Positions 23,473 to 64,000 of a DNA stretch of 64,000 nt are shown piece by piece. Numbering within the stretch: position 1 is the stretch's first letter; every line of letters starts with the position of its first letter. The notes under the pieces are model-generated. The model was not told the origin of the DNA, ran no database searches, and saw only the letters and a program-made list of their open reading frames with translations. The stretch is from Actinomycetota bacterium (lineage in GTDB: Bacteria; Actinomycetota; Actinomycetes; Actinomycetales; Dermatophilaceae): contig JAIUPO010000006.1 in assembly GCA_020160805.1 (NCBI GenBank), positions 1-64,000 of the forward strand, in the 5' to 3' direction. A program made the translations under genes and the position numbers.

Positions 23473-24474
23473 TCAGCCGTCGCGGCGGACGACGCGGTCG
23501 GCGAGGTGGGCCAAGGCGGCCGTGACCTCGCCTTGGGGCAAGGCAGCAAGGATGTCCTTGGCGCCGGCGGCGACGGCCTCGGTCTCGGCGCGGGCGCGGG
23601 CCATGGCAGGGTGCGGCCGAAGCAGGGCCAGTGCTTCGGCGACCTGATCCTCGCTCGGCTCGCTCAGGCGCAGCAGGTGCTGCAAGCGGGCGTCGGCCGG
23701 GTCCTGGGAGGCCAGTGCGTGAATGATCGGCAGGGTTCGCTTGCCCTCGCGGATGTCGGTACCGGGCGCCTTGCCGAGGACATCCATCTCCGAACTGATG
23801 TCGATCAGGTCGTCGGCGAGTTGGAAGGCGACGCCGATCCGCTCGCCATACTCGATGAGCGTCGCGATCGTCTCGCGCGAGCAGCCGGACAGCAGCGCGC
23901 CATAGCGCGCCGCTGTCGCGATGAGCACGCCGGTCTTGTCGGCGAGCACGCCGAGGTAGTAGGCGTTCGGATCCTGCCCGGGCGGGCACGCACGATCATC
24001 GCGGATCTGGCCCGAGCAGAGCCGGATGAAGGTCTGGCTCTGGATCTTGACGGCCTCCGGGCCGAGGTCGGCGATGATGTCCGAGGCCGTGCCGAAGAGC
24101 AGGTCGCCGACGAGGATCGCCGTCGAGTTGTCATACTTCGCATTCGCGGACGGCGCCCCGCGCCGGGTGAGCGCATCGTCCATGACGTCGTCGTGATAGA
24201 GCGAGGCGAGGTGGGTCAGCTCGACACCCGCCGCGGCCGCGACGACATCGTCATTGATCCCCGAGCCCAGTTCGGCCGCCAACAGCGTCAGCAGCGGCCG
24301 GAAGCGCTTGCCGCCGGCGCGCAGCAGGTGCGCATTAGCCTCGGCGATGAACGGATCGTCATGATCAACGCGGGCCGTGAGCAGGTCCTCGACGGCGGCC
24401 AGGCCGAGATCGAGGCGAGCCTGCAGCCCCGGGGAGATCCCCGGGAGCGCAGGAGCGGGTGCGGGAGTGACCAT
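23473..24474 (-). CDS. polyprenyl diphosphate synthase (menaquinone side chain)
   Basis: 333 residues. Trans-prenyltransferase motifs are complete: first Asp-rich motif in LYHDDVMDDALTRRG near residue 92, second in QLADDLIDIS near residue 218, plus GGKRFRPLL near residue 55. It elongates farnesyl or geranyl diphosphate with isopentenyl diphosphate, most likely to the chain used by MenA. The start lies three bases after the nuoN stop, so it is the last gene of the menJ-like/nuo operon. Exact chain length cannot be read from the sequence. Confidence 0.92.
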   Translation of the reverse strand: MVTPAPAPALPGISPGLQARLDLGLAAVEDLLTARVDHDDPFIAEANAHLLRAGGKRFRPLLTLLAAELGSGINDDVVAAAAGVELTHLASLYHDDVMDDALTRRGAPSANAKYDNSTAILVGDLLFGTASDIIADLGPEAVKIQSQTFIRLCSGQIRDDRACPPGQDPNAYYLGVLADKTGVLIATAARYGALLSGCSRETIATLIEYGERIGVAFQLADDLIDISSEMDVLGKAPGTDIREGKRTLPIIHALASQDPADARLQHLLRLSEPSEDQVAEALALLRPHPAMARARAETEAVAAGAKDILAALPQGEVTAALAHLADRVVRRDG

Positions 24475-24477
24475 AGG

Positions 24478-26040
24478 TCAGCGGATGAACTGGCTGGCCT
24501 GGTTGGCCAGGTCCAGCACCGGTGCCGGGAAGACGCCGAGCGCGACCGTCAAGATCACGGCGACGGCCAGACCGACGGTCGTCAGGACGGACGGGTTGAG
24601 GGCACGAACCTCGCCTTGTGCCTCGCTGAAATACATCAGCACGATGACACGGACATAAACGAAGGCCGTGACCAGGCTGCACAGCACACCGATGACGACG
24701 AGCACGGCCAAGGTGGTGCCGCCATGGGCGATCGCCGGGGCGAAAGCCGCGAACTTGGCGGTGAAACCAGAGGTCAGCGGGATGCCGGCGAAGGTCAGCA
24801 GCAGCAGCGCGAAGATGCCAGCCACCACGGGGTGCCGCTTGCCCAGCCCGCTCCACTGCGCGATGTGCGAGGCCTCGGCGCTGCCCTCGCGGACCAAGGC
24901 GACGATACCGAAGGCGGCGATCGTGGCCAGGCCGTAGGCCAGGACATAGAACATCACGCCGGAGACACCGGTCGCATCGAACGCGAGAACACCGACGAGG
25001 ATGAAGCCGGCGTGGGCGACCGAGCTATAGGCCAGGAGGCGCTTGATGTCGGTCTGCGTCACGGACAGCACCGAGCCGACGATCATCGTCAGCGCCGCGA
25101 TCGCCGCCACGCCCATCCGCCAGTCCCAGCGGTCCGCGTCGATGCCGGTGTATGCCAGTCGCAGGATCGCCCCGAAAGCGGCCAGCTTGGTGCAGGCGGC
25201 CATGAAGCCGGTGATCGGCGACGGCGCGCCTTGGTAGACATCCGGGGTCCACTGGTGGAAGGGCACGGCGCCGACCTTGAAGAGCAGGCCGACGAGCACG
25301 AGCAAGACACCCGGGAGCAGCAGTCCCTCGACATCCGCCGGGGCGGTGGTGATGGCCTGGCTGAGGGCGGAGAACTTCACCGAGCCGGCATACCCGAACA
25401 GCAAAGCGGACCCGAAGAGGAAGAAGGCGCTGGAGAAGGAACCGAGGAGGAAGTACTTCAGGGCGGCTTCTTGCGACAGCAGGCGACGGCGACGGGCCAG
25501 GCCAGTGAGCAGATAGAGCGGCAGCGAGAGAACTTCCAGCGCGACGAACATGACCAGCAGATCGCCGGCGGCCGGGAAGATCATCATGCCGGCGACGGAG
25601 AACAGGGCCAGCGGGAAGACCTCGCTTGTGCCCCAGCCGGCGCGGGTCGCGGCCGCCTCTAGCGGCGAGCCGGGAACGGCGGCGCCCATGGGGGTGAAGG
25701 CGTCCGCTCCGGCGCTGGAGAACTTCTCGGCCATCAGCAGGACCGATAGGAAGGACAGCAACAGCACTGAGCCCTGCATGAAGAGGGCAGGACCGTCGAT
25801 GATCATCGCGCCGTCGAGGGTCGCGCCCTTGTTGTCGACGGCCTTCCACACCAGCGCGCCGAAGGAGGCAGCGATCGTGAGCAGGGCCAGTGCAACCTGG
25901 ATGGAGTGGCGCGACGAGCGCGGCGCGAAGGCGTCGACGAGGACGCCGATCAAGGCGCCGCCGAAGACGATCAGCACGGGCAGGATGGCCCAGTAATTGA
26001 TCTCGGCGACCGTGAAGGCGGTCGGCAAGAGCGTGGTCAT
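24478..26040 (-). CDS. nuoN: NADH-quinone oxidoreductase subunit N
   Basis: 520 residues from ATG 26040, sharing one base with the nuoM stop (TGATG); a GTG three bases earlier is possible. Fourteen or so membrane segments. The channel segment is FKVGAVPFHQWTPDVYQGAP near residue 260, followed by the SSVAHAGF helix. One of the three proton-pumping antiporter-like subunits of the main complex I. The downstream polyprenyl synthase starts three bases after its stop. Confidence 0.95.
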   Translation of the reverse strand: MTTLLPTAFTVAEINYWAILPVLIVFGGALIGVLVDAFAPRSSRHSIQVALALLTIAASFGALVWKAVDNKGATLDGAMIIDGPALFMQGSVLLLSFLSVLLMAEKFSSAGADAFTPMGAAVPGSPLEAAATRAGWGTSEVFPLALFSVAGMMIFPAAGDLLVMFVALEVLSLPLYLLTGLARRRRLLSQEAALKYFLLGSFSSAFFLFGSALLFGYAGSVKFSALSQAITTAPADVEGLLLPGVLLVLVGLLFKVGAVPFHQWTPDVYQGAPSPITGFMAACTKLAAFGAILRLAYTGIDADRWDWRMGVAAIAALTMIVGSVLSVTQTDIKRLLAYSSVAHAGFILVGVLAFDATGVSGVMFYVLAYGLATIAAFGIVALVREGSAEASHIAQWSGLGKRHPVVAGIFALLLLTFAGIPLTSGFTAKFAAFAPAIAHGGTTLAVLVVIGVLCSLVTAFVYVRVIVLMYFSEAQGEVRALNPSVLTTVGLAVAVILTVALGVFPAPVLDLANQASQFIR

Positions 26041-27575
26041 CACTTCTCACTCCCAGTGGAAACGGCGGCGGGAACGACCGGCACGGGATCGCTCACCCCC
26101 ACCTCGGTGAGGACCCGCTGCACCGCGGGATTGAGGACGTCAAGAACCGGCTTGGGGTAGACGCCGAGGATCAGGAAGCTCGCGATGAGCGGGGCGACGA
26201 CCCACTTCTCACGCCAGTTCAAGTCCTTGGCTTCGACGCCATCCGGCTTGGGCCCAGTCATCAGGCGCTTGTACATCCACAGGATGTAGATCGCCGCCAA
26301 CACGATCGCCAAGACCGCGATCGAGGCCACGCCGCGGTAGCGCGAGAAGGTGCCGATGATGACGAGCACTTCAGAGACGAAAGAGCTCAGGCCCGGCAAC
26401 GCGAGGCTGGAGAGACCGCTGATCAGGAAGGTTCCGGCGAGGATCGGGGTGACCCGCTGCCAGCCGCCATAATCCGAAATCTTGGTGCTGCCGTGGCGGG
26501 CGATGAGCATGCCAGCGATGAGGAACAGGCCCGCGGTCGAGAAGCCGTGGTTGATCATGTAGAGCGTCGAGCCGGCGCCCGAGACCGACGTCATCGCGAA
26601 GATGCCCAGCACGATCAGGCCGAAGTGGCTGATCGAGGTGTAGGAGATCAGGCGCATCATGTCGTTCTGGGCGATGGCCGCGAAGGCGCCATAGAAGATC
26701 GACACGACCGCGAGCGCGATGACCACCGGGGTCGCCCACTTGCTGGCCTCCGGGAAGAGCTGCAGGCAGAAGCGCAGCATGCCGTAGGTGCCGACCTTGT
26801 CCAGGACACCGACGAGCAGGGTCGCCGTGGCCGGCTTGGCCACGCCGGCCGCATCCGGAAGCCAGGTGTGGACTGGCCACATCGGCGCCTTGACGGCGAA
26901 GGCGATGAAGAAGCCGACCCAGAGCCACTTCGCCACGGTGGGATCGATGTCCAGCCCCGTGAGGTTGGAGATCAGGAAGCCCTCCTTGCCGCCGGGGCCC
27001 TGGAAGTAGAGGCCGATAACGGCCGCCAGCATTACGAGACCGCCCGCGAGCGAGAAAAGCAGGAACTTCAGCGCGGCCGCTTGCCGGCCCGGTCCGCCAT
27101 ACCCACCGATGAGGAAGTAGACCGGGATGAGCATCGCCTCGAAGAAAACGTAGAACAAGAAGACATCGGTGGCCGCGAAGACGCCGACCATGAAGGTCAG
27201 CAGCAGCAGCGTCCACGCGAAGTAGTTCTTTTCGCGGGTGCCGCCTTCGGGCACGTCATGCCAGGCGGCGAGGATGCAGACCGGGGTGAGGATGAGCGCG
27301 AGCAGGATCAGCGTCAACGAGATGCCGTCGACCCCGAGGGCGTAGGAGACGCCGAAGCTGGGGATCCACTCGTGGATCTCGGAGAGTTGGAACTGCGAGA
27401 TCGCATTGCGGTCGAACTGCGCGACCGAGCCCACGCCGACCGCGAGGGTGGCGAGCGAGAAGGCGAGCGCCAGCTCTTTGGCCCGCTCGGCCATCGCGGC
27501 GGGGAGGGCGGCGATGAGCGCGGCGCCGACGAGCGGCACCACCATCATCACCGTCAGCCAGGGGAAGTTCTCCAT
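26040..27575 (-). CDS. nuoM: NADH-quinone oxidoreductase subunit M
   Basis: 511 residues from ATG 27575, whose A is also the last base of the nuoL stop. Motifs: FYVFFEAMLIPVYFLIGGYG with the membrane glutamate, and FAVKAPMWPVHTWLPDA with the channel lysine near residue 235. The frame stays open upstream, but that part is a shadow of nuoL. Pumping subunit of the main 14-subunit complex I in the cytoplasmic membrane. Confidence 0.95.
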   Translation of the reverse strand: MENFPWLTVMMVVPLVGAALIAALPAAMAERAKELALAFSLATLAVGVGSVAQFDRNAISQFQLSEIHEWIPSFGVSYALGVDGISLTLILLALILTPVCILAAWHDVPEGGTREKNYFAWTLLLLTFMVGVFAATDVFLFYVFFEAMLIPVYFLIGGYGGPGRQAAALKFLLFSLAGGLVMLAAVIGLYFQGPGGKEGFLISNLTGLDIDPTVAKWLWVGFFIAFAVKAPMWPVHTWLPDAAGVAKPATATLLVGVLDKVGTYGMLRFCLQLFPEASKWATPVVIALAVVSIFYGAFAAIAQNDMMRLISYTSISHFGLIVLGIFAMTSVSGAGSTLYMINHGFSTAGLFLIAGMLIARHGSTKISDYGGWQRVTPILAGTFLISGLSSLALPGLSSFVSEVLVIIGTFSRYRGVASIAVLAIVLAAIYILWMYKRLMTGPKPDGVEAKDLNWREKWVVAPLIASFLILGVYPKPVLDVLNPAVQRVLTEVGVSDPVPVVPAAVSTGSEK

Positions 27576-29512
27576 CAGTTCATCACCCACAGTGCACCGA
27601 GGACAGTGACGACACCGGCGAGCATCGTCAGGGCGTAGGAGCGTGCATAACCGTTCTGCAGGCGCCGCAATCGCGTCGAGGCGGCACCGGTCAGCTTGCC
27701 GAGGCCCATCGCGCCGCCGTCGACCAATTCGTTGTCGGTCCAGATGACCGAGCGCACGAGCTTGATTCCGGGCCACATGAAGATCGCCTCGTTGAGGTCG
27801 TCTTGGTAGAGGTCCTTGCGGGCCGCCTGGGTCAGCGCATTGCCGGCCGGGGCGTTGACCGGGACCTCGTCGCGGCCATAACGAACCCACGCCAGGCCGG
27901 CGCCGAGGGCGACAAGGATCAAGGTCGCCGCCATCAGGACCGGGACGGCGATCACCGGCTCGTGGTGCTCGTGATGCCCGGTGACCGGCTCCAGCCAGTT
28001 GCTGAAGATATTCGTCGGGCCGAGGATCAGGCCGAGGGCGGCCGAGCCGACCGCGAGAACCATCATCGGCACCGTCATCGTCAGCGGCGACTCGTGCGGG
28101 TGCTGCGGCGGGTCATCGGTCCAGCGGGCCTTGCCGTGGAAGGTCATGAAGAACAGGCGCGACATATAGAAGGCGGTCACGCCGGCGCCGAGCAAGGCAG
28201 CGAGGCCAAAGACCCACGGGCGCCAGCCTTCGCCGACGAAGGCGGCCTCAATGATTTTGTCCTTGCTCCAGAAACCGGAGAAGGGCGGGACACCGAGGAT
28301 CGCCAGCCAGCCGAGGCCGAAGGTGATCCACGTGATCTTCATGTACTTGCCGAGGTCACCGAAGCGGCGCATGTCGACCTGGTCGTGCATGCCGTGCATG
28401 ACCGAGCCGGCCCCGAGGAACATCCCGGCCTTGAAGAAGCCGTGGGTGATCAGGTGGAAGATCGCGAAGGCATAGCCGATCGGGCCGAGGCCGGCGGCGA
28501 GCATCATGTAGCCGATCTGGCTCATCGTCGAGGCGGCCAGCGCCTTCTTGATGTCGTCCTTGGCGCAGCCGACGATGGCGCCATACGTCAAGGTGATCGC
28601 GCCGACGACCGCGACCGCGAGCTGCGCGTTCGGGGCGCCCTCGAAGATCGCGTGGCTGCGCACGACGAGGTAGACACCGGCGGTGACCATCGTTGCGGCG
28701 TGGATGAGCGCCGAGACCGGCGTCGGGCCGGCCATGGCGTCTCCGAGCCAGCTTTGCAGCGGGAACTGTGCCGACTTGCCGCAGGCGCCGAGGAGCAGGA
28801 GCAGACCGATGGCGGTCAGCGCCGCGCTGCTCGCCCCGCCGACACCGGCGTCGACGCTCGCGAAGTCGACGGCACCGAAGGTCGCGAACATCAGTGAGAT
28901 GGCGAGGGCCAGGCCGATGTCACCGACGCGGTTGACCCAGAAGGCCTTGTTCGCGGCGGTGGCGTAGGCCGGGTTGTGGTTCCAGAAGCCGATCAGCAGG
29001 TATGACGCGAGGCCCACGCCTTCCCAGCCGACGAAGAGCAGGAGGTAGGAGTCGGCGAGGACCAGCAGCAGCATGGAGGCGACGAAGAGGTTCAAGTAGG
29101 CAAAGAAGCGCCGCTTGTCCGGGTCGTGGCTCATGTAGCCGAGGGAGTAGACGTGGATCAAGCTGCCCACGAAGGTGATCAGCATGACGAAGCTGATCGA
29201 CAAGGTGTCGATCTGCAGGCCCGCCTGGAGGTTGAAGGCGCCGGCCGGGATCCAGTCGAAGAGCACCTGGTGGGTGGATCGCTGCTCCGGGTCGACCGCC
29301 GCCAACTGAAGCAGCGCGACGACCCCGAGGCCGAAGCTCGCCCAGGACAAGCCGGTCGCCATGGCCGGGCCGAAGCTGTTGGTCGCCTTGCCGCCGAGCA
29401 ACAGGATCGCAGCGCCGGCCAGCGGCAGCGCGATCAGCAACCAGCCGGCCATGGAGACGGCGTCCGAGGACGTCGTGCTCTCCATCGCGATCTGGGTCAG
29501 GAGGGTGGACAC
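27575..29512 (-). CDS. nuoL: NADH-quinone oxidoreductase subunit L
   Basis: 645 residues from GTG 29512. Signatures: [38 protein letters not shown] near residue 245, and [15 protein letters not shown]. The C-terminal lateral helix region is present. It is the distal proton pump of the main complex I and is only distantly similar to the second copy at 7112. Confidence 0.95.
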
Positions 29513-29529
29513 GATGTGTTATCCCCTTC

Positions 29530-29829
29530 TCAGTACTTCAGCAGGTTGGCGTCGTCGACCGAGGCCGAGCGGCGGGCACGGAAGATCGCCATGATGATCG
29601 CGAGGCCGACCACGACTTCGGCGGCGGCCACGACCATGACGAAGAGCGCGATCGCCGCTCCGTCGATGGTTTCGTGCATGCGTCCGAAGGTGACGAAGGC
29701 GAGGTTCGCGGCATTGAGCATCAACTCGATGCCCATGAAAACCATCAGGGCGTTGCGTCGCGTCAGCACCGTCGCGGTGCCGATCGTGAACAGGATGATC
29801 GCGAGATAGATGTAATTCATCAGGTTCAT
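29530..29829 (-). CDS. nuoK: NADH-quinone oxidoreductase subunit K
   Basis: 99 residues, three membrane segments, with the conserved glutamate in [17 protein letters not shown]. Starts at ATG 29829 overlapping the nuoJ stop (ATGA). Usual NuoK length. Confidence 0.95.
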
Positions 29830-30596
29830 CGCGCGCTCCCCTCCTCGATCTCCTGGTGCGGGTCGTGCTCGGCGGCGCTGAACAGACCGGGCCGGGCCAC
29901 CTGGTCACGGGCCTGCAGCGTGCGGGAGACCGACAACTCGGTCGGGGTGCCATCGGGCAGCAGGGCCGGGGTGTCGACGGCATTGTGTCGGGCATACACA
30001 CCCGGCGCGGGCAGACCGGAGACGAACTCGCCGCGCTGGAAGCGACGGCGCGCCCACTCGCGCTGGTTGGGCTTCTCACCCATCCGCTCGCGGTGCGCGA
30101 GCACCATGGCGCCGAGCGCGGCGGTGATCAACAGGGCCGAGGTGATCTCGAAGACCCAGACGTACTTGCCGAAGATGACCTCGGCCATCGCCGAGATATT
30201 GCCCGGGCTGGCGTTGATCGCATTCAGGTTGGGCGTGCCGGTGACGGTGATGCGCCCGATCATCCCGATCAGCAAGGCGCCGAGGCCGAGGCTGAGCAGC
30301 AGGGTCAGCCAACGCTGCCCCTTGAGGGTCTCGACGAGGGAGTCGGAGGAGTCGACGCCGATGAGCATGACGACGAAGAGGAAGAGCATCATCACGGCGC
30401 CGGAGTAGACAAACATCTGCACCACACCGAGGAAGGGTGCGCCCTGGCCGATGTAGAAGATGCCGAGGATCGCCATCGTGAAGGCGACGCCGAGGGCAGC
30501 GTGCACGGCCTTGCGCGCGAACAGCAGCCCGAGTGCGGAGAGCACCGACAGCGATCCGAGGATCCAGAAGGTGACAGCTTCAGCGGTTCCGGTCAT
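29826..30596 (-). CDS. nuoJ: NADH-quinone oxidoreductase subunit J
   Basis: 256 residues. Five membrane segments occupy the first 170 residues, including [20 protein letters not shown]. The remaining 85 residues form a hydrophilic C-terminal extension common in actinobacterial NuoJ and absent from the second copy. Overlaps nuoI by four bases. Confidence 0.95.
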
Positions 30597-31147
30597 CGCG
30601 AGCCTCCTTCGACCTTGCCGAGGTAGTAGTCGCGCTCCTGCATCCCGTCGGCCATCGCGTGCGGCGGGGCGTCCATACCGGCCTGCAGCGGAGCGAGCAG
30701 CTGCTCCTTGGTGAAGATCAGGTCGGCGCGGCTGTCATCGGCGAGCTCGTAGAAGTTGGTCATCGTCAGCGCCCGCGTCGGGCAGGCCTCGATGCACAAC
30801 CCGCAGAAGATGCAGCGCAGGTAGTTGATCTGGTAGATACGCCCGAAGCGCTCTCCCGGCGAGAACCGGCCGGTGCCACCGGGCGTGTCGTCATTGTCAG
30901 CGCCCTCGACGAAGATCGCGTCCGCGGGGCATGCCCAGGCGCACAACTCGCAGCCGACGCATTTCTCCAGCCCGTCGGGATGCCGGTTGAGCTGGTGACG
31001 GCCGTGGAATCGCGGCTGGGTGGGGCGCTTGACCTCGGGGTATTCCTCAGTCTTAACCTTCTTGAACATCGTCGCGAAGGTGACTCCGAAGCCGCCAACG
31101 GGCGCGAACATCTCGGAGAAGAAGCCGGGCTTGTCCTTCTCAGCCAT
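30593..31147 (-). CDS. nuoI: NADH-quinone oxidoreductase subunit I
   Basis: 184 residues with two [4Fe-4S] motifs, [16 protein letters not shown] near residue 63 and [16 protein letters not shown] near residue 112 (clusters N6a and N6b). It lacks the long Pro/Ala tail of the second copy. Starts at ATG 31147 inside the end of nuoH. Confidence 0.96.
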
Positions 31148-32504
31148 GGATCACTGCCTTGCTCGAATCGGCCTGGGATTCCCCGGCGCTCTCGCGCAGG
31201 CGCTGACCGGGGAGCGGCGGCACGGGATAGCCACCGGCGAAGGGGTCGATCTCCGGGGGCACGACAACCGCGCGAGCTTCAGCCCGCTTGACCTGCCGGC
31301 CTTCCCAAATCCAGGTCGCGGCCAGCACCAGCAGGGCCAGCACGCCGATGACGATCAGCGATGCGAGTCGCCGCTCGGCGCCGAAGATATTCACGGCGCG
31401 ATCGCCGAGGAAGCCGTTGTTGGCGGCCTGCAGGAAGGCGATGGCGACGACCCACACGATCGTGACCGGGATGAGGAATTTCCACCCGAAGTGCATGAAC
31501 TGGTCGTAGCGGGTGCGGGGCAGGGCGCCACGCAGCCACACGAAGAAGAACATGAACATCCAGAGCTTGATGGTGAACCACAGCAGGCCCCACCAGCCCT
31601 CGTTGAACATGCCGTCATTGATCGCCGCGATGCCGGGCGGGGCCTGCCAGCCGCCGAGGAAGACGGTGGTGGCCAGGGCCGCGACGGTGAACATGTTGAC
31701 GTACTCGGCGAGGAAGAACATCGCGAACTTCAGCGAGCTGTATTCGGTGTGGAAGCCACCGGTCAACTCACCCTCACCCTCGGCGAGGTCGAAGGGCAGT
31801 CGGTTGGTCTCGCCGACCATCGTGATGACGTAGATGACGAAGGAGACCACCAACGGGATGATGTGCCAGATATCGCGCTGGTTGGCGACGATCTGCGAGG
31901 TCGACATCGAGCCGCTGTAGAGGAAGACCGCGACCAGCGATAGACCCATCGCGATCTCGTAGCTGACGATTTGGGCGCTGGAGCGCAGACCGCCGAGCAG
32001 GGGGTATGTCGAGCCGGAGGACCAGCCGGCGAGCACCACGCCATACGCCCCGACCCCGGCGACCGCCAGCATGAGCAGCACCGAGACGGGGACATCGGTC
32101 AACTGCAGGGGCGTCCTATGCCCGAACAGGCTGACCTCGGGGCCAAGCGGGATGATCCCGAAGGAGACAAAAGCCATCGCGCCGAAGAAGGCGGGCGCGA
32201 GGATGAAGACGACCTTGTCGGCGTTCTTGGGCGTCAGGTCTTCTTTGAGGGCCAGCTTGACGCCATCGGCGAGGGTCTGCAGCAGGCCGAAGGGGCCGGT
32301 GCGGTTGGGGCCGGGACGCTGCTGCATACGGCCGATGACGCGCCGCTCGAACCAGATGACCAGCAGAGTGCTGAGCAAGAGGTAGACGAAGATCAGCAGC
32401 GCCTTGACCAGCGAGAGCCACCAGGGGGTGTCGCTGAAGTCGGCGATCGGATTGTCGCGGGGCACATAGGGCTCCGCCGCCGCGAGGGCGGTCAGGACGG
32501 TCAT
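31140..32504 (-). CDS. nuoH: NADH-quinone oxidoreductase subunit H
   Basis: 454 residues from ATG 32504, overlapping the nuoG stop by four bases. Conserved elements: [20 protein letters not shown] in the first loop and [20 protein letters not shown] in the acidic loop that forms the quinone channel. The C-terminal 60 residues are polar and Pro-rich. Much longer than the second copy (316 residues). Confidence 0.95.
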
Positions 32505-34924
32505 ACGGCACCTCCGGTGGTGAGGGTGACGAGGGAACCGGCGCCGGCCCCGAGGGTGGCGACCCGGGAGCCGGCCGAGTTGGTCGGCACCCACACCACG
32601 CCCTCGACCATCTCGGTGATGGCTAGCGGGAGCGTGATCGCGCCATCCGGCCCGGTGACGGTGACGTGGTCGCCGTCGACGGCACCGAGGGCGGCAGCCC
32701 CGGCGGGCGAGACGCGCGCCACGGCCTTGGGCGCTGTGCCCGCGAGGAAGGGCTCGCCGTCCTGCAGGCTGCCCTTGTCGAGCAGGTGATGCCAGGTGGC
32801 CAGGACATACTGCCCGGCGTTCAGGGCGGGCACGGTGGCGGCGACGGCTTCCGGGCGCGGCGCGCGCGGGCCGGTCCACGGGCCGAGAGCGGCCATCTCG
32901 GCCTGGACCTGCGCCAGGCTGCGGGTGCCGAGGAACTCTCCGAGCTCGCCGGCGAGCAGGTCGAGGACGCGATAGTCGGAGAGTGCATTGGTCTCCAGCG
33001 CGGCCGCGAAGGGCCGGACCCGGCCCTCCCAGTCCACGAAGGTGCCCGACTTTTCGGCGTGCGGGGCGACGGGCAGGACGACATCGGCGTACGCGGTCAC
33101 GCTGCTCGGGCGGTATTCGAGGGAGACGACGAAGGCCTTCTCCAGAGCGTCATAGGCCGTGTCGTCACCGAGGTCGGCGGCGTCCACGCCGCCGACGACC
33201 AGGGCGCCGAGCGCACCGGACGCGGCAGCCGCGATCATGCCGGCGGTGTCGAGGCCGACGTCGGTCGGCAGCGACGCAACACCCCACGCCTTGGCGACCT
33301 CGTCGCGGGCGGCGATATTGCCGGCCGGGCGGCCACCGGGCAGCAGGCCGGACAGGGCGCCGGCCTCCAGGGCGCCGCGCTCACCGGCGCGGCGGGGAAT
33401 CCACGCCAAGGTGGCGCCGGTTTCCTCGGCGAGGGTCAAAGCGGCGGCAAGCGCACCCGGCACCATCGCGAGACGTTCGCCGGCGAGGATCAGGCTGCCC
33501 TCGCCCGAGGCGGCCTCGCGAGCCACCTCCGAGGTGAGGATTTCGGTCTCGGTGCCCGGCGCCGCGGGGATCAGGGCGCCCGCGAGCTTGGTTAGGCCGC
33601 GGGTGGCATAAGGCGCGATCGAACTGATCTGGGTCTTGTTGCGGCGCATCGCCTTGCGCAGGCGCAAGAACACGATGGGGCTTTCCTCTTCCGGCTCGAA
33701 GCCGACGAGCAGCACCTTCGGCGCCTTCTCGATATGCGCGTAGGTGACGCTGCCACCCTCGGGGCCAGTCGCGGCCACCGCGGCGGCGAGGAAGCGGGCC
33801 TCGTCCTTGGTATGCGGGCGGGCCCGGAAGTCAATGGCATTGGTGCCGAGGACTGTTCGCGCGAACTTGCCATAGGCATACGCGTCCTCGCTGCTGATCC
33901 GGCCGCCGGTCAGGACACCGGCCTTGCGACCCTGCAGGCCAGCCGCTGCGGCGGCCAGGGCCTCAGGCCATGAGGCGACCTCGAGCTGACCGCTCGCGCC
34001 GCGCACGAGGGGCAGCGAGATGCGGTCACCAACGGTGGGTGAGGCGAAGGCCCAGCGGCCCTTGTCGCAGTTCCACTCGTCGTTGACCTCGGGGTCGTTG
34101 ATGGCCATCCGGCGCAGCACGGTGCCGCGGCGGTGGTCGGTGCGGATGGCGCAGCCGCTGGCGCAGTGCTCGCAGGCGCCGGGCGTCGAGACCAGGTCGA
34201 AGGGGCGCGAGCGGAAGCGGTATGCCGCACCGGTCAGGGCTCCGACGGGGCAGATCTGGACGGTATTGCCGGAGAAGTAGCTCTCGAAGGGCTGGTCTTC
34301 GTAGATGCCGACCTGCTGCAGCGCGCCGCGCTCGACGAGCGCGATGAAGGGGTCACCGGCGATCTGGTCGGAGAAGCGGGTGCACCGGGCGCACAGGACG
34401 CACCGCTCGCGGTCGAGCAGCACCTGCGAGGAGATATTGATCGGCTTGGGATAGGTGCGCTTGAAGTCCTCGAAGCGCGAGACCGGCCGACCGCTGGACA
34501 TCGCTTGGTTCTGCAGCGGGCATTCCCCGCCCTTGTCACAGACGGGGCAATCGAGCGGGTGGTTGATGAGCAGCAGTTCCATGACCCCGTGCTGCGCCTT
34601 CTCGGCGCCGGGGCTGGTGAACTGGGTCTTGACGTCCATGCCCTCCGAGACCGTCATGACACAGGACGGCTGCGGCTTCATCCGCCCGGGCGGGCCCTGC
34701 ATCTGCCGCAGTGCGCCGGGGGTGCCATCGGGTCCGGGCGGGCCGGGCAGGGCCACCTCGACCAGGCACTGGCGGCAGGAACCCTGCGGCTCCAGCGACG
34801 GGTGGTCGCAGAAGCGGGGGATCTGGATGCCGATCTGCTCGGCGGCCCGGATGATCAAGGTGCCCTTGGGCACCGAGACCGGGATGCCGTCGATGGTCAG
34901 ATTGACCAGGTCCTGCGCGCTCAT
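32501..34924 (-). CDS. nuoG: NADH-quinone oxidoreductase subunit G
   Basis: 807 residues. Cluster ligands seen in order: the N-terminal [2Fe-2S] site ([16 protein letters not shown]), the His-Cys3 site ([14 protein letters not shown]), the [4Fe-4S] site CVLCARC with a distal CPVG, and an N7-type set CEHCASGC plus NCDKG. The molybdopterin-oxidoreductase-like domain fills the remainder, without catalytic function in complex I. It belongs to the NADH-input module, of which the second cluster has no copy. Confidence 0.95.
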
Positions 34925-36228
34925 ACGGACGCCTTCTCTGTGGCGAAGAGGGCGGATGCGTCCCGGTCGAAGGGACAGCCGCCGTGTGTCAGATGTGCGA
35001 TGTACTCATCGCGGAAGTACTCGATGCTGCTGGTGACGGGCGAGGTCGCGCCATCACCGAGCGCACAGAAGGACCGCCCGAGGATGTTGTCGCTGACATC
35101 GAGCAGTTTGTCGAGGTCTTCTTCGTCACCGACGCCATGCTCGAGACGGCCCAAGATCTGCTTGAGCCACCAGGTGCCCTCCCGGCAGGGCGTGCACTTG
35201 CCGCAGGACTCGTGCTTGTAGAAGTCGATCCACCGGTCGACGGCGCGCACGACACAGGTGGTCTCGTCGAAGATCTGCAGAGCTCGGGTGCCGAGCATCG
35301 AGCCAGCCTTGGCGACCGAGTCGAAGTCGAGCGGAATGTCCAGGTGCGCGTCGGTGAACAGCGGCGTGGAAGACCCACCCGGAGTCCAAAACTTCAGCTT
35401 CTTGCCGCCGCGCATGCCGCCGGCCATGTCGAGCAGTTCACGCAAGGTGATGCCGAGCGGGGCTTCATACTGCCCCGGCCGGGTGACATGCCCGGAGAGG
35501 GAGAAGAAGCCGAAGCCCTTGGAATTTTCGGTGCCCATGGCGGAGAACCAGTCGGCGCCGTGCAGCAGGATCGGCGGCACCGAGGCGATCGACTCGACAT
35601 TGTTGACAACGGTCGGACGGGCATACAGGCCGGCGACGGCCGGGAATGGCGGCTTGGAGCGCGGCTGGCCGCGACGGCCCTCGAGGCTGTCGAGGAGCGC
35701 GGTCTCTTCACCACAGATATAGGCGCCGGCCCCCGCGTGCACGGTGACATCGAGGTCGAAGCCGGAGCCGTGAATGTTCTTGCCGAGGTGACCCGCGGCA
35801 TACGCCTCCTCCACCGCGCGCAGCAGGCGGCGGTAGACGTGGACGACCTCGCCGCGCAGGTAGATGAAGGCGTGGTTGCAGCCGATGGCGTAGGAGGTGA
35901 TCGCGACGCCCTCGATGAGGAAGTGCGGCGCCGCCATCATCAGCGGAATGTCCTTGCAGGTGCCCGGCTCGGACTCATCGGCGTTGACGACGAGGTAGCG
36001 GGGACCGCCGTCCGGCGGGGGGAGGAAGGACCACTTCATGCCGGTCGGGAAGCCGGCGCCACCGCGGCCGCGCAGGCCGGAGTCCTTGGTCATCGCCACG
36101 AGAGCGGACTGCTCCATACCGAGGGCCTTTTTGAGGGCTTGGTAGCCGTCATTGTCCTCGTAGGTGCCCAGCGTCCAGCTCTGCGGGTGGTCCCAGAACT
36201 TGGAGAGAATCGGGGTCAGCGTCGTCAT
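34921..36228 (-). CDS. nuoF: NADH-quinone oxidoreductase subunit F (NADH/FMN)
   Basis: 435 residues from ATG 36228. The glycine-rich NADH site [16 protein letters not shown] lies near residue 55. The FMN-binding segment [12 protein letters not shown] follows near residue 85. The N3 cluster cysteines are in [12 protein letters not shown] near residue 350, with a further Cys in SFCALGDGA. This is the site of NADH oxidation. It begins one base after the nuoE stop. Confidence 0.96.
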
Positions 36229-36229
36229 C

Positions 36230-37081
36230 TCACTCCCCTGCCTTGTCGTTGGCGGTGCTCTCGCGAGCGCCCTGAAGCGACTCGCCGGCGGCATCGCGGA
36301 CCACGGCCCGCTCATCCTTGACCTGACCGGCCTGCTCGGCCGCGTCAGCGGGCGCCCCCGATGCGGAGTCGCCTGGTGCTGTCCACCCGTGCTGGTGGGC
36401 GACCTTGAGGCCCTCGATGCTCGCGGGACCAGCGCCGACGCCCTGGTCGGCGAGGCCGTCGGGGAAGCCGGCGAGCACGCGCGACATCTCCTTGAAGCTG
36501 ACCTGACGGTCCGGGCCGCGGCTCGGCTTGACGGCGACGCCGGAGCGTAGGTCGTCGACGAGGGCGATTGTGGACTCGGGGGTCTGGTTGTCGTAGAACT
36601 CCCAGTTGACCATCACGACCGGTGCGAAATCGCAGGCCGCATTGCACTCGACGCGCTCGAGCGTGATTTTGCCATCGCGGCTGGTCTCGTCGTGCTCAAG
36701 GTCGAGGTGCTCGCTGACCGCCTCCCAGATGCGGTCGCCGCCCATGATCGCGCAGAGCGTGTTGGTGCAGACGCCGACGGTGTACTCGCCATTGGGGTGG
36801 CGTTTGTACTGGGTGTAGAAGGTCGCCACCCCGCTGACCTCGGCCTCGGTGAGGTCGAGCTCTTCGGCGCAGAAGCTCACGCCGCGGCCGGCGATATAGC
36901 CGTCGACCGACTGCACGAGGTGCAGCATCGGCAGCAGCGCGGAGCGCTTGACGGGATAACGCGCGATGATCGCCTGGGCGTCGCGGTGCAGCGAATCTCG
37001 GATGTCATCGGCATAGGGCTCCTTGCTCTCCGCCGAGACATGCAAGAAGCCGGAGGCCGTTTGTTCGCCGTAATGCTCCAT
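36230..37081 (-). CDS. nuoE: NADH-quinone oxidoreductase subunit E, with long tail
   Basis: 283 residues from ATG 37081, which shares one base with the nuoD stop. The thioredoxin-like [2Fe-2S] domain has its four cysteines in VCTNTLCAIMGG (near residue 103) and ECNAACDFAP (near residue 145). The remaining 80-odd residues, from about GPASIEG onward, are a low-complexity Ala/Gly/Asp/Glu tail that makes the protein longer than most NuoE. Function of the tail is unknown. Confidence 0.95.
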   Translation of the reverse strand: MEHYGEQTASGFLHVSAESKEPYADDIRDSLHRDAQAIIARYPVKRSALLPMLHLVQSVDGYIAGRGVSFCAEELDLTEAEVSGVATFYTQYKRHPNGEYTVGVCTNTLCAIMGGDRIWEAVSEHLDLEHDETSRDGKITLERVECNAACDFAPVVMVNWEFYDNQTPESTIALVDDLRSGVAVKPSRGPDRQVSFKEMSRVLAGFPDGLADQGVGAGPASIEGLKVAHQHGWTAPGDSASGAPADAAEQAGQVKDERAVVRDAAGESLQGARESTANDKAGE

Positions 37082-38460
37082 CAGCGGTCGACTCCTCCCA
37101 TCACAGGATCGATAGAGGCGACGGCGACGATGACATCGGCGACCTGGGCGCCCTCGCACATCGCGGCCACGGCCTGCAGGTTGTTGAAGCTCGGCTCGCG
37201 GAAGTGCACGCGATGCGGGCGGGTGCCACCGTCGGAGACGGCATGGCAGCCCAGCTCGCCCTTGGGGGACTCGACCGCGACATAGGCCTGTCCGGCCGGC
37301 ACGCGGAAGCCCTCGGTGACCAGCTTGAAGTGGTGGATCAAGGACTCCATGGAGGTGCCCATGATCTCCTTGATGTGGGCCAGGCTGTTGCCCATGCCAT
37401 CGGGGCCGACGGCCAGCTGCGCCGGCCAGGCGATCTTCTTGTCCTCGACCATGACCGGGCCGGGGTTGTTCTGCAGTTCGTCGATGACCTGCTCAACGAT
37501 CTTCAAGGACTCGAACATCTCCTTCACGCGCAGCCAGAGCCGGTCGTAGGCGTCGGCGCCGGTGCGGGTGAGGACCTCGAAGTCGTACTTCTCGTAACCG
37601 CAGTAGGGCTGGTCCTTGCGCAGGTCGAGCGGGTACCCGGCGCTGCGGAGCATGGGGCCGGTGACGCCGAGCGCCATACAGCCGGTGAGATCGAGGTGCC
37701 CGACGCCGACCATGCGGCCCTTGAGGATCGGGTTCTCGAGCATCAACAGTTCGAGCTCGTGGAAGCCCTGGCGCAGCAGCGGGATCATCTCGCGGATTGC
37801 CTGGATGGCGCCGGCGGGCAGGTCTTGCGCGACGCCGCCCGGGCGGATGTAGGCGTGGTTCATCCGCAGGCCGGAGATCATCTCGAAGACCGACAGGATG
37901 CGCTCGCGCTCGCGGAACCCGACGGTCATGACCGTGGTCGCGCCCATCTCCATACCGCCGGTGCCCATGCAAACCAGGTGGCTGGTGATGCGGTTGAGCT
38001 CCATCATCAGCACCCGGATGGCGCTGGCGCGCTCGGGGATCTGGTCGGTGATGCCGAGCAGCTTCTCGACGGCCAGGCAGTAGGCGGTCTCGGTGAACAG
38101 CGGCATGACGTAGTCCATGCGCGTGCAGAAGGTCACGCCCTGAACCCAGGTGCGGAACTCCATATTTTTCTCGATGCCGGTGTGGAGGTAGCCGATGCCC
38201 GCGCGAGCCTCGGTGATCGTCTCACCTTCGAGTTCGAGAATCAGTCGCAGCACGCCGTGGGTGGACGGGTGCTGCGGGCCCATGTTGACGACGATGCGTT
38301 CTTCGGGGCGCGACCCCACCTCGCCGACGATGTCGTCCCAGTCGCCGCCGACGGCATTGAAGACGCGGCCGGACTCCTCCTCGCCGGAGGCGGCATACAC
38401 ATCCACGCGCTCGTCGGTCTCATCGACCTCGGCCTCGCTGAAAACGGTTGACTCGCTCAT
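37081..38460 (-). CDS. nuoD: NADH-quinone oxidoreductase subunit D
   Basis: 459 residues, the 49-kDa subunit that forms the quinone site with NuoB. Visible blocks: [16 protein letters not shown] near residue 58, [31 protein letters not shown], and the C-terminal [12 protein letters not shown]. About 40 acidic residues precede the core. It is the only nuoD in the window, so it may also have to serve the second, D-less complex I unless another copy exists elsewhere. Confidence 0.96.
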
Positions 38461-38461
38461 A

Positions 38462-39229
38462 TCAGCTGTACGACCTCCGCTGGTCGGGCGGCGGAACGGT
38501 CCCGCCCTTGTATTCCACAGGAATCCCGCCGAGCGGGTAATCCTTGCGCTGGGGGTGGCCCGGCCAATCGTCGGGCATCAGGATGCGGGTCAGCGCCGGG
38601 TGTCCGTCAAAGATCACGCCGAACATGTCCCAGGTCTCACGCTCGTGCCAGTCGGCGGCGGGATAGGTCGGGACGACGCTGGGGATGTGCGGGTCGGCGT
38701 CGGGGGCGGTCACTTCGAGGCGGATGCGACGCCCGCCATTGGTGATCGACATCAGGTGGTAGACGACGTGGAGTTCGGCGCCGGTCTCGGCGGGATAGTG
38801 CACGCCGGAGACGCTCAGGCATAGCTCGAAGCGCAGGCTCGGGTCGTCACGCAAGGCGCGCGCGACCGCGGCGAGGTGCTCACGAGCGACGAAGAAGGTG
38901 ATCTCGCCGCGGTCGATGACCACCCGGTCGATGCCGCGGCCGGTGGCGGCCTCCAGGGCATCGGCGATTGCGTCGAAGTCGCCGCCATAGGGGCGAACAG
39001 CGGCGGCGGGGAACAGGATTGGGCTGCGCAGCCCGCCATACCCGGAGGTGTCGCCGGAGTCGTGGGCGCCGAACATGCCGCGGCGCTCGCCGCGCTGGAC
39101 CGGCTCGGGGATGGTGCCGGGCTCGGCCGGCAGGTTCTCGGCGACTGGCGGTTGAACATCCGTTTTGGCCGCCTGGTCCACCGCGGACTCGTTGACCGCA
39201 GGCGTCTCCGTCTTAGGGGTCTCGCTCAT
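38462..39229 (-). CDS. nuoC: NADH-quinone oxidoreductase subunit C
   Basis: 255 residues. The family signature [18 protein letters not shown] is near residue 197, followed by [19 protein letters not shown]. An N-terminal extension of about 60 polar residues is absent from the second copy. Overlaps nuoB by ATGA and ends one base before nuoD. Confidence 0.95.
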
Positions 39230-39807
39230 GCCAGCAGGCTCCGTCGCTCGCCGTGGTCGTGCGTGGGCGCCATCAGCGCGGTCGGCGTTGCCTCGAGCGC
39301 GGCCGCCTCGGCGGCGCGGGCGGCGGCCACCCGGTTCACGCCCAGCTTGGAGTGCTGGATCTGGTCGTGCAGCGTAAGGATCGCGTTCAGCAGCATCTGC
39401 GGGCGCGGCGGGCAGCCCGGGAGATAGACATCAACCGGGATGATGTGGTCGACGCCCTGGACGATGGCGTAGTTGTTGAACATACCGCCGGAGCTGGCAC
39501 AGACGCCCATCGAAATGACCCACTTGGGCTCGGGCATTTGGTCATAGACCTGGCGCACGACCGGGGCCATCTTCTGGCTGACTCGGCCGGCGACGATCAT
39601 CAGGTCCGCCTGGCGCGGGGTCGCGCTGAAGCGCTCCATGCCGAAGCGGGCGATGTCGTAATCCGGCGTGCCGACGGCCATCATCTCGATGGCGCAACAC
39701 GCCAGACCGAAGGTGGCCGGCCAGATCGAACTCTTGCGCATATAGCCCGCGACCTGCTCAACGGTCGTGAGCAGGAATCCGGCAGGCAGTTTCTCTTCGA
39801 TACCCAT
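39226..39807 (-). CDS. nuoB: NADH-quinone oxidoreductase subunit B
   Basis: 193 residues. N2-cluster ligands: [11 protein letters not shown] near residue 36, [10 protein letters not shown], and [12 protein letters not shown] near residue 137. The gene starts at ATG 39807, 20 bases after nuoA, and overlaps nuoC. Confidence 0.96.
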
Positions 39808-39827
39808 AACTGGTCCTTAGGGTCCCT

Positions 39828-40190
39828 TCAGTCCCAGTCCAGGCCGCCGCGGCGCCAGACATAGGCGTAGGCGACGAAGACCGTGAGGATGAACAGCACC
39901 ATCTCGACGAGCGCGAACAGGCCAAGGCCTCCGAACGCGACGGCAAATGGATAGAGGAAGACCGACTCGACGTCGAAGATGATGAACAGCATCGCCGTCA
40001 GGAAGTACTTGATCGGCACGCGGCCACCGCCCTCAGCCTGGGGGCTGGGCTGGATGCCGCATTCATAGGCGTCCATCTTGGCGCGGTTGTATCGCTTCGG
40101 CCCGGTCAGGGGCGCGATCGCGACCGAGAAGATCGCGAAGCCACCACCGATCGCTAAGAAGAACAACAGCGGGACATAGGGGTTGGTCAT
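39828..40190 (-). CDS. nuoA: NADH-quinone oxidoreductase subunit A
   Basis: 120 residues, three membrane segments, with the conserved loop YECGIQPSPQ near residue 44 that retains the cysteine missing in the second copy. Preceded by GGGGAG at good spacing. Separated from the reductase gene upstream by 99 bases that may hold a second promoter. Confidence 0.95.
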   Translation of the reverse strand: MTNPYVPLLFFLAIGGGFAIFSVAIAPLTGPKRYNRAKMDAYECGIQPSPQAEGGGRVPIKYFLTAMLFIIFDVESVFLYPFAVAFGGLGLFALVEMVLFILTVFVAYAYVWRRGGLDWD

Positions 40191-40289: not shown

Positions 40290-41573
40290 TTATGCATCCG
40301 GTGCCATCCTCGCCATCGCATTGATGATCCGGTCGGAGGCTGCGCCGCCGCGCTCCTCGGGAAGGTTGGCCATGACCTTGAGCAGGAACTTCATCAAGGT
40401 GGTGCGCGGCAGGCCGTACTTCGTCGCCAGCCGCATGACCTCGGGGTGGCCGATCGCGTGGGCAAACCACCGGCCCAGGGTGAAATAGCCGCCGAGGGCG
40501 GACTTCATGAGTTCGGGGTATGCCGCGAGCACCCGCTCGCGGTCCGCGTCGCTGCCGCGGGTGAGAGCCTGGGCGATGATCTCGCTGCCCACGCGGGCCG
40601 CCTCGAGGGCGTAGTCGATGCCCTCGCCGTTGAACGGATTGACCATGCCGCCGGCATCGCCGACGAGGAGGAGTCCGTCCGCATACAACGGGCTGCGATT
40701 GAAGCCCATGGGGAGGGCGGCGCCGCGGATCGGGCCGGCGGACTCATCGTGGGTCAGGTGCCAGTCGGCGTCTATGTCTTCGACCCAGCGGCGCATGACG
40801 TCCTTGTAGTCGGTCTTGCCGAAGGCGCTGGAGGTGTCGAGGATGCCGAGCCCGACATTGGTGCGGCCGTCCTCGAGGGGGAAGAGCCAGCCATAACCGG
40901 GCATCAGCTGCCGGTTGCCGGCGTCATCGCGGGTCCACAGTTCGAGGTGGGACTCGAGATAGTTGTCTTGGCGGGGCGTCTTGTAATAGGCGCGCACGGC
41001 GACGCCCATGACCCGGTCCTCGCGCTTCTCCCGGCCAACGGCGGTCGCGAGGCGGGAGGAGACGCCATCGGAGGCGACGACGACGGGGGCGCGCACGGCA
41101 TACGTCTCCCCCGTGGCCCGCCCCTTAGCGTCGAGGCGCTTAGCGCTGACGCCGACGACCCGGCCGGTGCGCTCGTCGCGGATCGGCTCGGTTGCCGAGG
41201 TGGCTTCGAGGAGTTTGGCCCCGCGCTGCTGGGCGTGGCGGGCCAACGCCTCGTCGAACTGGCTGCGGGTGCGGACCATGCCATATCCCGGGAAAGTGCG
41301 GGTCGTGGGCCAGTCGAGCGTGAGCGTGTGGCCGCCGCCCTTGATGCGCAGGCCCTGCGTGCGCTGCCAGCCGGTGGTGTCGACGCCGAGGCTGACGAGT
41401 TCCTTGACCGCGCGCGGCGTCAGGCCGTCACCGCAGATCTTGTCGCGGGGGAAGGTGGCCTTCTCCAGCAGGACGACATCGAGTCCGTGTTGGGCGAGGT
41501 AGGCAGCCGTGGCGCTCCCGCCCGGGCCGGCGCCGACGACGACGACATCGGCCTGATCGACAGGCTGTGTCAT
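40290..41573 (-). CDS. geranylgeranyl reductase family flavoprotein (MenJ-like)
   Basis: 427 residues. The N-terminal Rossmann motif VVVVGAGPGGSATAAYLAQ binds FAD. The later motifs GDGLTPRAVKEL and VGDAGGMVNPFNGEGIDYAL (near residue 285) complete the FAD domain. In mycobacteria a homologue (MenJ) saturates one double bond of the menaquinone side chain, and an equivalent gene commonly precedes nuoA in actinobacteria. Being first in an operon with complex I and the polyprenyl synthase fits that role. It could instead reduce other prenyl lipids. Confidence 0.9.
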   Translation of the reverse strand: MTQPVDQADVVVVGAGPGGSATAAYLAQHGLDVVLLEKATFPRDKICGDGLTPRAVKELVSLGVDTTGWQRTQGLRIKGGGHTLTLDWPTTRTFPGYGMVRTRSQFDEALARHAQQRGAKLLEATSATEPIRDERTGRVVGVSAKRLDAKGRATGETYAVRAPVVVASDGVSSRLATAVGREKREDRVMGVAVRAYYKTPRQDNYLESHLELWTRDDAGNRQLMPGYGWLFPLEDGRTNVGLGILDTSSAFGKTDYKDVMRRWVEDIDADWHLTHDESAGPIRGAALPMGFNRSPLYADGLLLVGDAGGMVNPFNGEGIDYALEAARVGSEIIAQALTRGSDADRERVLAAYPELMKSALGGYFTLGRWFAHAIGHPEVMRLATKYGLPRTTLMKFLLKVMANLPEERGGAASDRIINAMARMAPDA

Positions 41574-41592: not shown

Positions 41593-41610
41593 TTGTGAAC
41601 GGTTTCACGA
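41593..41610 (-). promoter_or_regulatory. Rex operator upstream of reductase-nuo operon
   Basis: On the plus strand TTGTGAA (41593-41599), CGGT, TTCACGA (41604-41610). This matches the Rex operator pattern TTGTGAA-N4-TTCACAA at all but one position. It is immediately downstream of the putative transcription start, where a bound repressor would block polymerase. Rex is an NADH/NAD-sensing repressor known to control nuo in Streptomyces, and a rex gene lies at 63547 in this window. Confidence 0.8.
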
Positions 41611-41618
41611 ACTGAGCG

Positions 41619-41624
41619 AGTCTA
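41619..41624 (-). promoter_or_regulatory. putative -10 of the reductase-nuo operon
   Basis: TAGACT on the minus strand, a good actinobacterial -10, about 46 bases before the ATG at 41573. The predicted start of transcription (about 41612) abuts the Rex operator. Confidence 0.5.
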
Positions 41625-41645: not shown

Positions 41646-41664
41646 GGAAGTAAGGCTTGCCTAA
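41646..41664 (-). promoter_or_regulatory. possible DtxR/IdeR-type iron box upstream of the nuo operon
   Basis: On the minus strand TTAGGCAAGCCTTACTTCC; the first 17 positions carry 13 matches to the 19-base DtxR consensus recalled as TTAGGTTAGCCTAACCTAA. Its core TAAGGCTTGCCTAA is near-palindromic. It lies just upstream of the promoter and overlaps the stop codon of the neighbouring gene. Confidence 0.45.
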
Positions 41665-58594: not shown

Positions 58595-59593
58595 TTACAG
58601 GAGGGCGGCGGCGTCGAGGGCGAAGTAGGTCAGGATCAGCTGGGCACCGGCGCGGCGGATGCCGATCAGGGACTCGAGCATCACCCGGTCGCGGTCGATC
58701 CAGCCGCGATCGGCGGCGGCGATGATCTGGGAGTACTCCCCCGAAATCTGGTATGCCGCAACGGGAACCGGGCTCGCGGCCGCCACGGCGGCGACGATAT
58801 CGAGGTGTGGGCCGGCCGGTTTCACCATGATGATATCGGCCCCTTCGGCGAGGTCTTGCGCGAGTTCGCGCAAGGCCTCGGTCGCGTTCGGCGGGTCTTG
58901 TTGGTATGCCGCCCGGTCTCCGACGAGCGAGCTCGCGACCGCCTCGCGGAAGGGCCCATAGAGACCGGAGGTGTATTTCGCCGTATAGGCAAGGATCACG
59001 ACGTCCTGGAAACCTTCGGCGTCCAGGGCCGCGCGGACGTGCCCAACCTGGCCGTCCATCATCCCCGAGAGACCGAGCACGTGCGCACCTGCGTGCGCCT
59101 GAGCGAGTCCCATCGCGGCATACCGCTGCAGCGTCGCGTCATTGTCGACCCGCCCGGCCGCGTCGAGGACCCCGCAGTGCCCGTGCGACGTGAACTCATC
59201 CAGGCACAGATCGGTCATCACGACGAGCCGATCCCCGACCGCGTCGACCACCGCCCGTGTGGCGACATTGAGGATGCCTTCAGGGTCGTCCGCGCCCGAG
59301 CCCTCCGCGTCCTTCGCCAGCGGCACTCCGAAGAGCATGATGCCCCCGAGCCCCGCGTCGACGCACCGATGTGCTTCTGCGACAAGGGATTCGATCGTAT
59401 GCTGCACGACCCCCGGCATCGCGCCGATCGGCTGCGGCTCATCGATCCCTTCCCGCACAAAGACCGGCAGGATCAGATCAGCCGGGTGCAGCCGGGTCTG
59501 CGCGACCAGCCGCCGCATCGCGGCTGAAGTGCGCAACCGGCGGGGCCGAACGCTCGGGAAGGTGCCCGACGGCATACCCCCGGCAGCCGGCAT
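58595..59593 (-). CDS. hemB: delta-aminolevulinic acid dehydratase (porphobilinogen synthase)
   Basis: 332 residues from ATG 59593, sharing a base with the cobA-hemD stop (TGATG); GTG 59596 is possible. It condenses two aminolevulinates. The metal-binding region is DLCLDEFTSHGHCGVLD near residue 128. The two active-site lysines are in LAYTAKYTSGLYGPFRE near residue 203 and DIIMVKPAGPHLDIV near residue 256. Last gene of the rex-hem operon. Confidence 0.95.
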   Translation of the reverse strand: MPAAGGMPSGTFPSVRPRRLRTSAAMRRLVAQTRLHPADLILPVFVREGIDEPQPIGAMPGVVQHTIESLVAEAHRCVDAGLGGIMLFGVPLAKDAEGSGADDPEGILNVATRAVVDAVGDRLVVMTDLCLDEFTSHGHCGVLDAAGRVDNDATLQRYAAMGLAQAHAGAHVLGLSGMMDGQVGHVRAALDAEGFQDVVILAYTAKYTSGLYGPFREAVASSLVGDRAAYQQDPPNATEALRELAQDLAEGADIIMVKPAGPHLDIVAAVAAASPVPVAAYQISGEYSQIIAAADRGWIDRDRVMLESLIGIRRAGAQLILTYFALDAAALL

Positions 59594-63550: not shown

Positions 63551-64000
63551 GGCGCCACCCGCTCCAGGTCGACATCGAAGTCTCGGCGTTGGCGCAGGAA
63601 GGCGAGAATTTGCAGCTCCGCGGCGACCTCGACTGGGCGCACATCCACCGCGTCGGGGACCGCGAGATTGCCGCCGGCCAGGTTGAGGATCGAGCTGACC
63701 CCCGCCGCGACAAGCGCATCCGCGACCTGTTGCGCGGCGCTTTCAGGAGTGGCGATGACCCCGATCGCATCCCGACCGCGCACCGTCCCCGGCAGGTCGG
63801 CGAGGTCTTGAATGGTCAGCTCTCCAACCCGCTCACCAATCACGGCCGGGTCCACATCGAACAAGCCGGCCACGCGAAAACCCCGGGCGAAGAACCCGCG
63901 GTGGCCCGCCAGGGCACGCCCCAGGTGACCCATGCCGACGATGACGACGGCCCACTCCCGGGTCATCCCCAGCTCGCGGGAGATCTCCAGCGAGAGGTGC
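63547..64000 (-). CDS. rex: redox-sensing repressor Rex, N terminus missing
   Basis: The C-terminal 150 residues are present; the frame runs off the right edge, so the DNA-binding domain is outside. The NADH-binding Rossmann motif VIVGMGHLGRALAGHRGF is followed by GFRVAGLFDVDPAVIGERV, GVIATPESAAQQVADALVAA and ILNLAGGNLAVPDAVDVR, all typical of Rex. Rex releases DNA when NADH/NAD rises. A near-perfect Rex operator lies upstream of the nuo operon at 41593. Confidence 0.93.
   Translation of the reverse strand, partial: HLSLEISRELGMTREWAVVIVGMGHLGRALAGHRGFFARGFRVAGLFDVDPAVIGERVGELTIQDLADLPGTVRGRDAIGVIATPESAAQQVADALVAAGVSSILNLAGGNLAVPDAVDVRPVEVAAELQILAFLRQRRDFDVDLERVAP

Follow-up and report, generated by a model that had tools for sequence, protein, structure and literature searches.

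The nuo promoter of a Dermatophilaceae genome carries a predicted Rex operator and an IdeR-type half-site

Our results suggest that P1, the promoter in front of the reductase-nuo operon, is likely to be doubly regulated by Rex and IdeR, with a probable basal promoter, P2, before nuoA. The initial annotation of the window, by which we mean the whole 64,000-nt stretch of DNA that was analysed, had noted a Rex operator behind a -10 element and had proposed that Rex switches the 18-kb operon. The observation is confirmed and the interpretation is partly supported: a conserved TAGGAT hexamer before nuoA and an IdeR-type half-site beside the -35 region argue against control by Rex alone. The features concerned are collected in Table 1.

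Table 1. Coordinates of the promoter elements and genes discussed in the text (positions in the window)
Feature	Position	Strand	Basis
Trans-isoprenyl (polyprenyl) diphosphate synthase-like gene	23473..24474	-	3 nt past nuoN; best NCBIfam match 310 bits, under that model's cut-off
nuoA-N, complex I, closely packed	24478..40190	-	nuoA, B, C, D, E, F, G, H, I, J, L, M and N families matched
TAGGAT, -10-like, putative promoter P2	40248..40253	-	63 nt upstream of nuoA; Rex site not nearby
Geranylgeranyl-reductase-family gene (MenJ-like)	40290..41573	-	above family cut-off; below MenJ cut-off
Rex operator (predicted)	41593..41610	-	TCGTGAAACCGTTCACAA in gene orientation; genome's best match; kept in 75/80 relatives
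-10 element TAGACT of promoter P1	41619..41624	-	sequence; TAGACT or near variant in 57/57 composites
IdeR-type 14-bp half-site TTAGGCAAGCCTTA	41651..41664	-	9/10 positions of the TTAGGNNNNCCTAA half-site (PMC8464063)
hemA, hemC, hemD-type fusion, hemB	58595..63550	-	downstream of rex; Pfam matches
rex, 3' part	63547..64000	-	gene at contig 63547-64218; NCBIfam equivalog, 306 bits

The palindrome at P1 has the form TTGTGAAN4TTCACAA with one mismatch. As had been claimed, it deviates from the Rex consensus at a single position, the plus strand at 41593-41610 reading TTGTGAACGGTTTCACGA where the consensus is TTGTGAANNNNTTCACAA, and it lies directly after a TAGACT -10 element. Read along the minus strand, P1 runs TTAGGCAAGCCTTA (41664-41651), 26 nt, TAGACT (41624-41619), 8 nt, TCGTGAAACCGTTCACAA (41610-41593), 19 nt and the ATG at 41573. 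The site thus sits in the promoter of respiratory genes, and with the transcription start placed from the -10 hexamer it would occupy about +2 to +19 of the transcript. The -35 element of P1 in the window is poor. Genome-wide scans were done by pattern, with the backwards pattern as control, and the top Rex-type site of the 3.75-Mb genome was the operator at P1. Allowing up to two mismatches to TTGTGAANNNNTTCACAA gave three places in the genome and none for the control; these are the nuo operator, a second site at contig 64302-64319 and a third upstream of the gene for GTP-dependent PEP carboxykinase (pckG). With up to three mismatches the count rose to 20, with 10 for the control, and weaker Rex-type matches are therefore unreadable.

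The operator is well conserved. We compared it with the regions upstream of the reductase gene in 80 named relatives, actinobacteria that range from Terrabacter, Janibacter and Knoellia to Nocardioides, Frankia and Saccharopolyspora, and a Rex site matching 11 to 14 of the 14 positions was present in 75 of them, where permuted palindromes lead one to expect about 0.7. In L014, L033 (Austwickia chelonae), L069 and L076 the reductase gene is present and no Rex-type site was found in the region fetched. In an alignment of 76 promoters the inner A is kept in all 76 nuo sites and the inner T in 68, and the downstream half is mostly TTCACAA. The single deviation from the consensus is itself conserved, since in 73 of the 76 the second base of the upstream half is C (54) or A (19). 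The genome encodes Rex, and in a set of 297 genomes from the class 207 of the 230 with rex contain the exact motif, compared with 14 of the 67 without rex (p about 2e-27 by a Fisher test that ignores relatedness, on a two-by-two table compiled by hand from two listings); several of these 14 rex-negative genomes are incomplete assemblies. Together with the sequence of the site, the evidence strongly supports the prediction that Rex is the protein that binds the P1 palindrome.

The rex gene reported in the window proved to be real. Most of it lies inside, and its GTG start is just beyond the window's end. The initial annotation had suggested looking for the same site upstream of rex beyond position 64000, and one was found there, outside the window: TTGTGCGCTCCTTCACAA at contig 64302-64319, 83 nt upstream of the GTG. 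This operator is kept in 27 of 30 relatives from the family, mostly as TTGTGCATNNNTTCACAA, and its position 6 is C in 26 of the 27 family sites; the rex operator of Streptomyces avermitilis likewise has C at position 6 (PMC5355995). The nuo and rex operators therefore carry separate conserved deviations, C or A at position 2 in one and C at position 6 in the other, both in the promoter-upstream half. These operator-specific deviations may serve to tune affinity.

The element upstream of the P1 -10 was assigned to the IdeR type because it matches TTAGGN4CCTAA at nine of the ten positions, while its agreement with the degenerate full 19-bp consensus is 15 of 19 with the mismatches mainly in the last repeat, so that the repeats for a second dimer are disrupted. 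Most relatives likewise retain just the 14-bp part of the IdeR box. With a centre predicted at about -44, the half-site adjoins the -35 region. On contig 4 the genome encodes one clear DtxR/IdeR gene, whose product scores 326 bits against an actinobacterial DtxR model with a cut-off of 290 and 98 bits against the best MntR model, for which the cut-off is 350. The closest PDB entry to this protein is Mycobacterium tuberculosis IdeR, and its recognition helix, SGPTVSQT, is that of the M. tuberculosis protein. Three canonical 19-bp boxes were found in the same genome, before genes for a siderophore-type binding protein, an EfeU-type permease and an iron-type binding protein, names based on a reading of the translations only. 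Two boxes fall inside the -35/-10 region or directly abut it, and the remaining one is 10 nt before the start codon of its gene; the nuo half-site is placed differently from them. The ORF upstream of P1 (41661-42218, minus strand) contains an MT0933-type antitoxin Pfam domain and a proline-rich tail, and its stop codon falls inside the half-site.

In the alignment of 76 promoters, TTAGG....CCT is seen upstream of the -10 in relatives from the host's family, the Dermatophilaceae. In the 85 nt preceding the Rex site, a half-site scoring 8 to 10 of 10 occurs in 24 of 37 family promoters, with about 0.6 expected from permuted motifs, and in the same interval the half-site scores of 38 promoters from other groups were no different from chance. 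We defined a composite as an exact pattern of Rex site, 34 to 48 nt and half-site. Of 188 family genomes, 85 contain it, each in a single copy, and these represent 28 of 53 genera; the backwards control gave no match, and in a class-wide draw of 395 genomes the four composite matches were all in the host's family. Among 30 composite loci, 23 lead into the reductase gene and the other seven, where the reductase was not found, directly into nuoA. Because all 30 would drive either reductase-nuo or nuoA, the composite belongs to nuo.

The geometry of the composite is constrained in one part and loose in another. The distance from the half-site to the -10 is 24 nt (17 cases), 25 nt (33) or 26 nt (7) in all 57 composites examined, which come from 28 genera, while the gap from the -10 to the Rex site varies from 7 to 13 nt in these 57 representatives. 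The former distance was not imposed by the search, although where -10 hexamers tied, the one nearer 25 nt was chosen. Across the 28 genera, the sequence between half-site and -10 has diverged while the gap has stayed fixed. The same arrangement recurs elsewhere at nuo. A half-site is found in the gap between the reductase gene and nuoA in eight Saccharopolyspora species, in Solihabitans fulvus, in the Nocardioidaceae genome L060 and in L083, 24 to 26 nt before a TAGRNT -10, a distance at which such a hexamer has a chance probability of about 0.002. Thirty further nuo upstream regions yielded two with the same geometry (L226 and L199) and a weaker candidate (L214). No half-site was seen in the nuo upstream regions of the mycobacterial genomes sampled, and most of the other families sampled are without it. 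In L083 (3615-3666) and L084, the reductase-nuoA gap has two Rex sites in tandem, each perfect or nearly so, and behind them an IdeR half-site and then a TAGGGT -10.

The first gene behind P1 had been described as a menaquinone side-chain reductase. Its membership of the geranylgeranyl reductase family stands, and the more specific label is plausible but unproven, as the protein scores 254 bits against the MenJ model, whose cut-off is 700. In the nuo cluster, the nuoK ORF (29530-29829) was assigned by position only. About half of 79-80 relatives have an exact TAGGAT between the reductase gene and nuoA, and a strict listing gave 41 such hexamers in 80 reductase-nuoA loci, most from the host's family. 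This suggests that TAGGAT is the -10 of a second nuo promoter outside Rex control. With a putative Rex-free P2 before nuoA, Rex may modulate nuo and not switch it.

Other readings of the two elements were considered. Since the Rex consensus includes TGTGAN6TCACA, the nuo palindrome might be a CRP-type site, and the third genome-wide match, the one before pckG, is CRP-like in relatives. A CRP site, however, would be unconstrained at the inner bases and keep its first T. The nuo sites hold on to the inner A (76/76) and T (68/76) that mark Rex and have replaced the critical first T by C or A (73/76), whereas the inner A is absent from all ten pckG sites that were scored; the motif, moreover, tracks the presence of rex. 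The CRP reading of the nuo palindrome is largely refuted, and we regard it as highly improbable. The pckG palindrome itself (contig 9, 126136-126153; L005:3137-3154), about 150 nt upstream of the gene and with two mismatches to the Rex consensus, was rejected as a Rex target because other genomes among the relatives show TGTGAN6TCACA there; it is more likely a CRP-family site. For the half-site, a similarly slim prospect is that it arises by accident from a stop codon in GC-rich sequence: TTAGGCAAGCCTTA contains the TAG stop codon of the upstream ORF, which ends at that TAG in the window and in some relatives. Several relatives (e.g. L010, L017, L024 and L035) nevertheless have no long ORF ending there, and the CCT half is conserved though it lies outside the ORF. 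These observations, together with the spacing data, led us largely to reject the half-site as a mere conserved stop codon.

It is also distinctly unlikely, in our judgement, that P1 is governed by Rex only, through an ordinary operator as in Streptomyces, next to a half-site that is a relic or belongs to another binder. Regulation of nuo by Rex is established (PMC5355995) and the half-site is missing in most families that have the Rex site, but the half-site is held 24 to 26 nt from the -10 over 28 genera while the intervening sequence diverged, and it turns up again at other nuo promoters. A more serious contender, though still an unlikely one, is that IdeR represses by covering the -35 region, so that an ample iron supply would lower complex I. 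Most DtxR/IdeR proteins act as repressors, the half-site adjoins the -35, and the fixed spacing could equally reflect such cover. A poor -35 might have been taken as a sign that P1 depends on an activator; this argument found no support, because the -35 of P1-type promoters with a half-site is no weaker than that of nuo promoters without one. It is thus not unusually weak, which leaves room for repression. On the other hand, the canonical, repressing-type boxes of the host genome sit further downstream, there is little physiological reason to shut off an enzyme rich in iron when iron is abundant, and the nuo genes of M. tuberculosis are reported to be iron-induced (stated in PMC8464063).

We therefore return to double regulation of P1 by Rex and IdeR. 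NAD+-bound Rex would sit on the operator just past the -10 and block transcription, a position that fits a block of initiation, and would be released when NADH rises. One iron-loaded IdeR dimer would occupy the 14-bp half-site at about -44, against the -35 region. Since the half-site is held at a fixed distance from the -10 over many genera and at several promoters, contact with RNA polymerase and stimulation of transcription under plentiful iron are the most likely consequence; if IdeR binds, we consider iron-dependent activation moderately probable. Complex I, which requires many iron-sulfur clusters, would then be produced under the combination of high NADH and available iron, with P2 probably maintaining a Rex-independent basal level. 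The broader proposal, that the nuo promoter of the host's family is an AND-type gate, activated by IdeR at about -44 and blocked by NAD-bound Rex, and that the half-site/-10 geometry arose or moved several times among the nuo promoters of actinobacteria, is more tentative, and we offer it as possible but somewhat doubtful.

The Rex part of this arrangement is a new instance of a known regulation, as control of nuo by Rex is known in S. avermitilis, where the nuo, rex-hem, cyd and atp promoters are all bound by Rex and their transcripts go up when rex is deleted (PMC5355995). The two systems share TTGTGAAN4TTCACAA, the nuoA1-N1 and rex-hemAC1DB targets and a Rex site before rex. In S. avermitilis, however, the nuo site lies 147 nt before nuoA1, with a footprint from -42 to -16, whereas here it precedes the reductase gene and is downstream of the -10; and no iron site was reported at nuo in that organism, while the host has an IdeR-type half-site beside the Rex site (PMC5355995). 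The Rex site class seen at nuo may have been predicted in silico before. Ravcheev et al. (J Bacteriol 2012) reportedly made a comparative study of the Rex regulon.

The nearest counterpart of the iron part is in Saccharopolyspora erythraea, where, according to a structural study (PMC8464063), a 14-bp TTAGGN4CCTAA-type site is likewise present at the complex I operon and one IdeR dimer binds this half-site in vitro with an apparent KD of about 102 nM. The eight other Saccharopolyspora species have the half-site between the reductase gene and nuoA, apart from the Rex site, whereas in the host the two lie in one promoter. The fixed 24-26 nt spacing is not mentioned for S. erythraea in the available portions of PMC8464063 and PMC10317159, and the latter, a 2023 review, states that half-sites in other species and the role of IdeR there remain to be investigated. 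DtxR of Corynebacterium glutamicum resembles what we propose for P1 in that it binds at an operon of the respiratory chain (sdhCD) and can activate metH; its motif is longer, and neither nuo nor Rex is named as a target in the accessible part of that paper (PMC12327846). Among open-licence papers we found none that treats Rex together with IdeR at nuo.

A Rex site at complex I genes fits textbook biology; the neighbouring IdeR-type site is less expected. What is new is the occurrence of IdeR-type half-sites over 28 genera, in a placement fixed beside the promoter and adjoining a Rex operator. If the AND gate is true, IdeR half-sites would be activators of iron-rich respiratory enzymes. If double regulation of P1 holds, NADH sensing and iron sensing would meet at the start of the respiratory chain, and both signals may gate complex I, the host's largest iron-sulfur enzyme.
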